NCBI GenBank assembly: GCA_019244235.1
Contig: JAFASY010000042.1
Span: forward strand, 1-41,716
Direction of reading: 5' to 3'
DNA length: 41,716 nucleotides
Source of the DNA: Chroococcidiopsidaceae cyanobacterium CP_BM_ER_R8_30
GTDB lineage: Bacteria; Cyanobacteriota; Cyanobacteriia; Cyanobacteriales; Chroococcidiopsidaceae
Positions 12,066 to 14,666 of this stretch are shown here, piece after piece. The notes beneath the pieces were generated by a model. It saw only the letters and a list, made by a program, of their open reading frames with translations, searched no databases and was not told the DNA's origin. Made by a program: the position numbers and the translations under genes. Position 1 is the first letter of the stretch; the number at the start of each line of letters is the position of its first letter.

Positions 12066-12422
12066 TTTGCATTATGCAGTTTGACCCAATGGGGAGCTAC
12101 CTCAGCAATCTGCTTGCAGTACTACGAAAGGCAGTGTATTTTTAAATAAATGTTAAATTATGGACACAATTTGTAATGCTAAACACAAAAATAGCTACTT
12201 TTCAGATTGCTTGAGGAAGTTGTGGGTGCTATCCCCAACAAATCCTTGAGTCTTTTCTCAAAGTTATTAAGACTAAGTCAAGGAACAGTTGAATGATTTT
12301 ACACAATCTTTAAATTAAAGCAAATATTCGCTAAGATGGATGGCAAGAGAGTTTTGATTCCGCAGCAGCCTGTTTACAGCTCTCCCCGAACAAGCAGGTG
12401 TCCTTAGTCTGCTAATAACTAA

Positions 12423-12466
12423 GAGCCAATCCATCGCAAGCGCCTGAAAAGCCGCTCAGGGAATGC
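12423..12466 (+). ncRNA. Leader motif copy 1 (GCAAGCG-hairpin-GAATGC)
   Basis: GAGCC (12423) is followed by GCAAGCG (12436-12442), a hairpin with stem CCTGA/TCAGG (12443-12460) and GAATGC (12461-12466). The outer GCA/TGC can pair, leaving an asymmetric purine-rich internal loop. The same arrangement recurs at 13724-13768 upstream of the paralogous gene, with a different but still complementary stem. It ends 57 nt before the ATG at 12524. This looks like a cis-acting RNA, but I cannot match it to a known riboswitch class. A longer CTTAGT/ACTAAG hairpin lies just upstream at about 12404-12424. Confidence 0.45.
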
Positions 12467-12523
12467 TGATCTAGTTTTTTAGAGAGATTGGTAATACAGC
12501 AATTGACATTTCCCCAACGGAGC

Positions 12524-12958
12524 ATGAACTTGGAACTTTTACTCAAGAGCGTTCAGATAGCTGTAACTAACTCCCCGTTAATTCTGGCAGTTGATGACGA
12601 TGAAGACAACCTGCTACTGCTAACTGAGATACTGAAACCCATATGCTGCTCCTGTATAACGGCAATTGATGGTCATACGGCTCTAGTGTTAGCACAAGAG
12701 AAGCAACCAGATTTAATCTTGCTAGATGTGATGCTGCCTGACTTGAATGGGACAGCAGTTATCCAACGCCTGCGGCAGAATCCGAAGACTAGTGCGATTC
12801 CAATTGTTGCTGTGACAGCCCTAGCTAGAGTTGAGGACCGAGAGAGCCTCATTTTGGCAGGGTGTAATGACTATATCAGTAAGCCCTATATGATTGATGA
12901 CCTAGAAGCACTTATCAATCATTATCTAAATCTGAGCCTGAAATCTTCTGTGGCGTAA
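12524..12958 (+). CDS. Single-domain response regulator (copy 1)
   Basis: A stand-alone receiver domain of 144 aa without an output domain. The acidic pocket is AVDDDEDN, the phospho-acceptor is D68 in DLILLDVMLPD, the switch Thr lies in VAVTALAR and the Lys in DYISKPYMI. Such proteins pass phosphate or bind a partner rather than DNA. I chose the ATG at 12524 because it makes the distance from Met to the acidic pocket identical to that in the paralogue at 13876; a TTG at 12488 would add 12 residues. It converges on a DUF2294 gene with 7 bp between stops, and the pair is duplicated next door. Confidence 0.88.
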   Translation: MNLELLLKSVQIAVTNSPLILAVDDDEDNLLLLTEILKPICCSCITAIDGHTALVLAQEKQPDLILLDVMLPDLNGTAVIQRLRQNPKTSAIPIVAVTALARVEDRESLILAGCNDYISKPYMIDDLEALINHYLNLSLKSSVA

Positions 12959-12965
12959 CCTTTGT

Positions 12966-13349
12966 TTAAGAGGGTAGATTATTGGCTTCTGGCTTAGCCG
13001 CTAGAAAGGCAGTAACGCTAGTGCGACCTGACTGAAGACTGGAATTGCCCAGCAGGTCAGTGACACTTACCATAAGTACTTCCTCAATTAAAGCCTTCAG
13101 TTGTGGCTGAAAAGCTTTGTGGATGCTAGCACGTACTTGCTCGGCTAACTGCTGCTTGCCACTTGCCACCAAAAACCGTTCTACTGCGGTAGTTGGGTCA
13201 TTGACAACAATTGTTAATGACTGATCGAGGAGTTGGCAAGAGACCTGAGTAGGCTTATGTCCCATACAGTTGAGGTACAAAACTTGAATCTGCTGTGAGA
13301 GGCTTTGTTCTAACTGCCTCGAATTGGGTGCTGAATCTTCGTACTTCAT
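12966..13349 (-). CDS. DUF2294/MpsC-like protein (copy 1)
   Basis: A 127-aa soluble protein, related over most of its length to the gene at 14289-14666. Shared blocks are the N-terminal QLEQSLSQQIQ helix, a central beta region (VSCQLLDQSLTIVV) and a C-terminal LIEEVLMVSVTDLLGN block followed by GRTSVTAFLA. This pattern fits DUF2294, also called the MpsC family because one member belongs to a sodium-transport system; no MpsA or MpsB membrane gene is present here, so that role is not supported. I chose the ATG at 13349, with GAAGGG upstream and a start matching the paralogue; an ATG at 13370 would add seven residues. Confidence 0.7.
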   Translation of the reverse strand: MKYEDSAPNSRQLEQSLSQQIQVLYLNCMGHKPTQVSCQLLDQSLTIVVNDPTTAVERFLVASGKQQLAEQVRASIHKAFQPQLKALIEEVLMVSVTDLLGNSSLQSGRTSVTAFLAAKPEANNLPS

Positions 13350-13723
13350 GTACCCTTCAATCAAAAACAAATACTATTAGTTTTAATTTTGTCTACCAAG
13401 TTAACAGTTTTAAATAATTAATACAACGTTCTAAAGATAGAGATTGCTGAGGTTTTAAATTATTAGCTTAAAAAACGAAACGATTTTATATTCAATATCT
13501 TAAACTTAAAATTGCTTAAATAATCTAGGTGTATTTAGCCAGAACCTAATCCCAAATTGGCACCTTCTGAAACGCCGCGCCTTGAGACTACCTCTGCTAT
13601 TGCCTAGCTATTGAGAATTCCAACGATTTTATGTAATATTGTGCAGCAAGCGACTTAATTGCTAGTTTGTTGTGATTCGTTCTGCAGTCAATCAGAATCA
13701 TAAACTAGCATGAGTTAATCAAC
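13350..13723. promoter_or_regulatory. Divergent spacer between DUF2294 copy 1 and response regulator copy 2
   Basis: An AT-rich gene-free stretch. It contains a long two-tier inverted repeat: GCTAGTTT (13661-13668) with AAACTAGC (13702-13709), and inside it TGATTC (13673-13678) with GAATCA (13695-13700). The arm sits 15 nt before leader motif copy 2, so the two may form one leader RNA. No ORF was credible. Confidence 0.4.
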
Positions 13724-13768
13724 GAGCCAGTCCGTATGCAAGCGCCAAGCCCGCCGTTTGGGGAATGC
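13724..13768 (+). ncRNA. Leader motif copy 2 (GCAAGCG-hairpin-GGAATGC)
   Basis: GAGCC (13724) is followed by GCAAGCG (13738-13744), a stem CCAAG/TTTGG (13745-13761, last pair G-U) and GGAATGC (13762-13768). Flanks are conserved with copy 1 (12423-12466), while the stem has changed on both sides so that pairing is kept. Downstream, ACCGC/GCGGT (13842-13856) forms another hairpin about 20 nt before the start codon. The motif ends 107 nt before the ATG. Confidence 0.45.
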
Positions 13769-13875
13769 CTCGTCCCAGCTTCCAACAAAGGATAGCTTTG
13801 GTCAAAGGTACACCGCTCTGGCAGGGGTGACGTATCTACTGACCGCATTCAGCGGTTAAAGGTTAAAAACGGCAG

Positions 13876-14292
13876 ATGGACATGGCATCTACATCTGGCA
13901 ACGATTGCCAGGACATTATTGTACGACCTCTAGTTTTGACTGTGGATGATAATGAAGATAACTTAGCGCTCCTGAATCAGGTGCTAATTATTATTGGTTG
14001 CTCATTCGTTAGTTCTAAAGATGGTCATTCGGCTATTCTCGTAGCACAAAAATATCAGCCAGATCTCATATTGTTGGACATCATGCTGCCAGATTTAGAT
14101 GGTATGGAAGTTGTCCGTCAACTTAAGCAAGACCCTAAAACCAGGCAGATTCCAATCGTGGCGGTGACAGCTATGGCACGAACAGAAGACCACGATCGTA
14201 TTCTTGCAGTTGGCTGTGATGGCTATATTAAAAAACCATACATGATTGACGAGCTAGAAGCCACAATTCGCCGATTTCTCTTTGGTGTTTAA
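13876..14292 (+). CDS. Single-domain response regulator (copy 2)
   Basis: A receiver-only protein of 138 aa, paralogous to the gene at 12524. The acidic pocket reads TVDDNEDN, the acceptor is D68 in DLILLDIMLPD, the Thr is in VAVTAMAR and the Lys in GYIKKPYMID. Identity with copy 1 is high around the active site and the C-terminal MIDELEA, and low in the first 20 residues. No histidine kinase is adjacent. The stop overlaps the convergent DUF2294 stop by 4 bp (TTAA). The leader repeats the hairpin motif seen before copy 1. Confidence 0.9.
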   Translation: MDMASTSGNDCQDIIVRPLVLTVDDNEDNLALLNQVLIIIGCSFVSSKDGHSAILVAQKYQPDLILLDIMLPDLDGMEVVRQLKQDPKTRQIPIVAVTAMARTEDHDRILAVGCDGYIKKPYMIDELEATIRRFLFGV

Positions 14293-14666
14293 GAGGATGG
14301 CTTGCGAACTTGGGGGGAATCAGCCAAGATTGCCACGGTTGCCGTTCGACCTGTTGATAATTTTGCATCGCTTAACAAATCGAGCACTGTTACTCCCACC
14401 ACTTCTTCAATTAGCGCAATCACTTGAGGCTGAAGCATCTCATCCAACTCCGTCCGTACCTGCTCTGCTAGCTTCTCTTGACCACTAGTGGCTAAAAGTT
14501 TCTCAGGTTGAGTAATAGAATTTTCTAGAATAATGGCTATTTTTTCGTCAAAAATCTGACATGTCACTCGACTAGGTTGATGCTCTAGTTGTGTGCGATA
14601 CAGAGACTGAATTCGCTGTGAAAGGGTTCGTTCTAATTGCCCACGCGTAGGAGGGAGTGAATCCAT
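14289..14666 (-). CDS. DUF2294/MpsC-like protein (copy 2)
   Basis: A 125-aa soluble protein, the second copy of the DUF2294-like gene. It shares RGQLERTLSQRIQSLY at the N-terminus, VTCQIFDEKIAIIL in the middle, and the ALIEEVVGVTVLDLLSD and GRTATVAIL blocks with copy 1. The family's biochemical role is not clear to me. Its fixed position tail-to-tail with a receiver protein in both copies suggests a functional link, possibly that one binds or tunes the other. No membrane segment or known catalytic motif is visible. Confidence 0.7.
   Translation of the reverse strand: MDSLPPTRGQLERTLSQRIQSLYRTQLEHQPSRVTCQIFDEKIAIILENSITQPEKLLATSGQEKLAEQVRTELDEMLQPQVIALIEEVVGVTVLDLLSDAKLSTGRTATVAILADSPQVRKPSS

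Follow-up and report, generated by a model that had tools for sequence, protein, structure and literature searches.

ANTAR-target RNAs are paired short hairpins that are bound by ANTAR-domain regulators. Like the element described here, they are structured RNAs with a link to signalling proteins of bacteria (PMC8164766), whereas the receiver proteins of the present locus carry neither an ANTAR domain nor any other output domain. Among the structured RNAs of cyanobacteria, the glnA and Downstream-peptide motifs (RF01739, RF01704) were likewise found by comparative genomics as potential 5' UTRs (PMC2864571), but they precede other genes and have another fold, the present element being a single interrupted hairpin without a match in Rfam. 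The psaA motif (RF01752) is also a hairpin element, confined to the leader of a single operon of cyanobacteria (PMC2864571); it comprises three hairpins upstream of photosystem genes, whereas the element reported here has just one, carries C•C mismatches and precedes receiver genes. The convergent partner gene belongs to the same protein family as staphylococcal MpsC (DUF2294, PF10057). In the accessible portion of the report on Staphylococcus aureus, mpsC is described as dispensable for MpsAB function, and neither an RNA element nor a receiver gene is mentioned (PMC6689103).

Here we report an element from a cyanobacterial genome that, in our best reading of the comparative data, would represent a new orphan class of cis-regulatory structured RNA absent from Rfam. 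A search of the window against Rfam 15 at E-values up to 10 returned no family over the element, in agreement with the preliminary description, which could not assign it to a known riboswitch class; the sole match in the window was a tRNA elsewhere. The same database gave no family over the element in eight divergent relatives at permissive E-values, and no match there reached the gathering cut-off. A literature survey of incomplete coverage (MpsC, DUF2294, PF10057 and cyanobacterial RNA motifs) yielded no published description of the element.

The two element copies and their genes

The window, i.e. the whole stretch of DNA that was analysed, consists of 41,716 nt of Chroococcidiopsidaceae cyanobacterium CP_BM_ER_R8_30 (contig JAFASY010000042.1). 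It contains a tandem pair of receiver genes with a single 57-nt element in the leader of each (12418-12474 and 13719-13776). The features are as follows (positions in the window, strand, description, evidence):

12418-12474, plus strand: element copy 1, in the leader of RR1 (R2 model, 48.6 bits, E 1.1e-12 in the window; gapped-pattern match)
12524-12958, plus strand: RR1, stand-alone receiver protein (ORF; Pfam Response_reg, 3.3e-23)
12966-13370, minus strand: MpsC-family gene 1 (DUF2294), convergent with RR1 (PF10057, 1.9e-27)
13719-13776, plus strand: element copy 2, in the leader of RR2, canonical member (R2 model, 60.8 bits, E 2e-16; gapped-pattern match)
13722-13726, plus strand: P1 5' strand ACGAG of copy 2, partner CUCGU at 13769-13773 (model alignment; outer-stem covariation)
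13727, plus strand: first C•C mismatch of copy 2, C13727 versus C13768, flanks GCC/GCC (CC in 112/115 copies)
13739-13744, plus strand: P2 5' strand CAAGCG of copy 2, partner CGUUUG at 13755-13760 (model alignment; the helix holds the top covarying pair)
13745, plus strand: second C•C mismatch of copy 2, C13745 versus C13754 (CC in 107/111 copies)
13876-14292, plus strand: RR2, stand-alone receiver protein (Pfam Response_reg, 2.8e-24)
14289-14666, minus strand: MpsC-family gene 2 (DUF2294), convergent with RR2 (PF10057, 9.7e-37)

The start codon of RR1 (ATG at 12524) is preceded by GGAG, and a TTG at 12488 is a possible alternative start of the ORF. Pfam detected no DNA-binding, ANTAR or other output domain in the RR1 and RR2 receiver proteins. 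The AlphaFold model of the MpsC protein encoded at 14292-14666 is confident (pLDDT 93.7), with the element order H-E-E-H-H-E-E; its comparison with the PDB, made with an RNA-binding fold in mind, produced nothing confident (best Foldseek E 0.011, best Z 7.4), TRAPP/BcsD-like and unrelated folds being mixed among the matches. A weak sigma-70-like promoter match (9/12, TTGAGA-17-TAATAT) is located at 13611-13639, approximately 80 nt 5' of copy 2, and no promoter-like match was present upstream of copy 1.

The preliminary description had placed a motif GAGCC...GCAAGCG...GAATGC at 12423-12466 and 13724-13768, each time 5' of a receiver gene and in otherwise diverged surroundings. Both the positions and the divergence were confirmed: a core of 31 nt is 71% identical between the two copies, and the flanks have diverged. 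As a gapped pattern, the motif has exactly two matches in the 5.54-Mb genome, and the reversed control has none. Copy 1 is a partly degenerate member; it retains the conserved core GCCAAUCC/GGGAAUGC, but its outer stem P1 is mostly broken and its P2 is reduced to AGCG/CGCU.

The helix originally proposed for the element, CCTGA/TCAGG in one copy and CCAAG/TTTGG in the other, did not survive the comparison. Stems of the CCTGA/TCAGG type are not kept in relatives and are ruled out as the helix of the element; the 118 copies collected here show a shifted stem, CAAGCG/CGCUUG, which begins inside the sequence formerly taken as a conserved flank. Since the 5' strand of P2 is identical in both window copies and pairs are broken in copy 1, which retains about four P2 pairs, these two copies alone show no compensatory change. 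Their single-copy folding stability is not unusual either (z 0.07 and -0.70). The evidence for structure comes from relatives and not from the single window copies.

Distribution and linkage to MpsC genes

Receiver homologues of Symplocastrum and Kastovskya carry the same element in two copies each, and it is also present at the receiver loci of close relatives. Two covariance models were built, the first from 19 copies and the second from 52 copies, and the whole-genome scans were blind to gene positions. The first model recovered at least one element in each of 22/22 relative loci and, class-wide, 28 elements in 24 of 388 genomes; all 28 are located directly 5' of a receiver gene of the same family, and nearly all have a convergent MpsC gene. 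The second model had matches in 86 of the 291 genomes of the same order at E 0.05, of which a few of the weakest are false, leaving about 80 genomes with the element. The element also extends to other cyanobacterial orders, in one of which the second model matched 15/36 genomes, a number that includes a few weak false matches. The model search found no element in receiver loci from other phyla.

When the fetched loci were rescored, a receiver ORF followed directly downstream of 135 of the 151 matches. The exceptions were cut loci, two extra degenerate copies (L093, L090), or matches of at most 25.2 bits. Above 25.2 bits and with complete downstream DNA, a receiver gene of the same family always follows, and an MpsC gene is nearly always convergent with it. 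Other target genes were considered and rejected; where a match of at most 25.2 bits lacks a receiver gene, it mostly falls within or spans unrelated ORFs, or it is an additional copy in a leader that already has one. The two degenerate copies (L093:1064-1118, plus strand, 20.6 bits; L090:1847-1900, minus strand, 18.7 bits) are second copies situated further up the same receiver leader, which suggests tandem elements in the leaders of two genomes of one genus. The initial proposal of a cis-acting structured RNA that was duplicated with its module thus gains support from many further copies 5' of homologous receiver genes across cyanobacteria, together with the covariation of the hairpin.

Linkage to MpsC was quantified in 40 relatives, where 45/54 MpsC genes face an element and 45/48 elements face an MpsC gene. 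At the genome level, the element is present in 26 of 28 genomes with MpsC versus none of 12 without (Fisher p 1.6e-8). The three elements that do not face an MpsC gene (G304, G306 and the second copy of G171) are still located 5' of receiver genes. No element was found at nine receiver paralogues without an adjacent MpsC gene (49-56% identical and about equally similar), nor at MpsC genes that have no receiver of this family next to them. Because MpsC-linked receivers carry the element and neither the unlinked paralogues nor the lone MpsC genes do, it is a feature of the receiver gene in receiver-MpsC modules.

The scores fade as the families become more distant (29.2 bits in L237, 19.7 in L232, 16.5 in L236 and 12.9 in L229), with all four matches at or just 5' of the receiver start; in receiver-MpsC modules of other families (L233, L235, L239, L221), the element was not detectable. 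Some genomes have two or three MpsC genes, and seven loci (L226, L227, L228, L230, L231, L234, L238) have MpsC/DUF2294 genes without a close receiver of the same family beside them. No MpsC gene was found on plasmid or phage records.

Structure and covariation of the hairpin

The full alignment comprises 118 copies (117 distinct rows) and was fitted to the model, which biases it towards the structure. The fold is one long interrupted hairpin. P1, of 5 bp, is followed by a C•C mismatch and 2 bp, then by a purine•purine mismatch and 3 bp; beyond an internal loop lie the 6 bp of P2, another C•C mismatch, a last 2 bp and the terminal loop. Both C•C mismatches are nearly invariant, at the frequencies listed above, and each lies within a symmetric GCC/GCC step; the purine•purine mismatch is kept in 104/116 copies. 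The internal loop is asymmetric, with 4 nt by 1 nt in most copies. The terminal loop ranges from 7 to 59 nt, a spacing without phase, and is approximately 45-50 nt longer in five loci with an unchanged core (L137, L172, L173, L174, L178).

Given the 118 copies and no structure, RNAalifold recovered pairs of the same four helices. In the 52-copy alignment, 90.1% of the cells are paired, and changes on both sides of a pair occur in 57 cells versus 19.2 in shuffles and at most 27 in slid registers. When 1,378 column pairs were ranked by a corrected G-test, the first six all proved to be predicted base pairs, the strongest being in P2. Covariation was also assessed on the receiver-protein tree, using purpose-written nulls in the style of R-scape rather than R-scape itself; the hairpin was supported, with 5 of 18 pairs at E<0.05 in the two-set test and one pair in the stricter one-set test. 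For the best pairs, parsimony reconstruction put the number of independent compensatory changes at 9, 9, 8, 7 and 6, and such changes are repeated at most pairs. The element has pairs that covary across lineages, and it occupies a constant position on the coding strand, ahead of a single set of genes. Independent departures from Watson-Crick pairing led to G•U far more often than to A•C (83 versus 34, p 7e-6), which assigns the structure to the coding-strand RNA.

Position ahead of the receiver gene and proposed mode of action

The distance from the end of the element to the first in-frame ATG of the receiver gene has a median of 49 nt, and conservation is near zero outside the edges of the element, which forms a compact island. 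A gap this short could hardly accommodate an intervening promoter, which makes it probable that the element is contained in the leader of the receiver mRNA. A fixed -10 box beside it is ruled out by flanks that lack positional conservation. A search of the leaders revealed neither a conserved intrinsic terminator (U-runs in 20/115 leaders) nor conserved base pairing that would sequester the Shine-Dalgarno sequence in the ribosome-binding region; start-region pairing was 0.232 with the leaders' own elements versus 0.200 with swapped elements (p 0.54). A leader peptide or uORF that begins with the conserved RUG was also rejected, as the reading frames opened by the internal ATG/GTG show scattered lengths (median 12 codons); the UG of this triplet is conserved because it pairs in the hairpin.

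We consider it likely that the 5' leader of the receiver mRNA contains the element as a structured RNA that acts in cis on the receiver gene, with a partner in trans at the mismatches. It would be transcribed and regulatory, and the receiver genes are probably subject to control through RNA. The conserved mismatches appear to be its obvious recognition feature; being invariant, they would provide a specific site for a trans-acting binding partner. The likeliest partner is a protein that belongs to the signalling module itself, and it would tune the translation or stability of the receiver mRNA. Control of a single gene family makes a dedicated protein more plausible than a general metabolite, and MpsC is a candidate partner named from its linkage alone. 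A bolder version, which we regard as distinctly unlikely, has the C•C and purine•purine mismatches serve for sensing or recognition in a new kind of RNA switch, either as a site read by MpsC or as a direct sensor, e.g. of pH via protonated C•C+, wired into a two-component receiver.

A metabolite or ion riboswitch, in which the internal loops would form a small aptamer and the ligand would alter receiver expression, is a rather unlikely alternative. It would account for the small conserved internal loops, the free length of the terminal loop and the fixed position in the leader; however, riboswitches usually precede several genes of a pathway and here only one gene family is controlled, no expression platform was seen in the leaders, and linkage to transporter or enzyme genes is absent.

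The inverted-repeat character would also suit a DNA operator, an imperfect dyad bound as a duplex by a transcription factor that perhaps responds to the receiver pathway, and two-component genes are often autoregulated. This reading is nevertheless quite improbable, since the terminal loop leaves no fixed half-site spacing, G•U is strongly preferred to A•C, an invariant C opposite C is unexpected in a dyad, and the receiver proteins have no DNA-binding domain. An independent small RNA, encoded in the leader region and acting in trans, would fit the compact island of conservation, but it is very improbable given that the receiver start follows closely at a fairly constant spacing, and given the lack of a conserved terminator after the element, and the tie to the receiver gene even without an adjacent MpsC gene. 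An attenuator, a leader peptide or a chance repeat left by tandem duplication is hardly credible: the window copies do lie in a duplicated module, but many lineages carry the element with covariation, U-runs are few, conservation already contradicts these readings, and the putative ORF lengths are scattered.

The structured leader RNA favoured here is represented by more than 100 copies in this study and is dedicated to one cyanobacterial signalling module. It suggests that a two-component receiver is under RNA-level control, and its tight linkage to MpsC provides a handle on a protein family without assigned function. If MpsC does read the mismatches, DUF2294 would gain its first function, and one linked to RNA.
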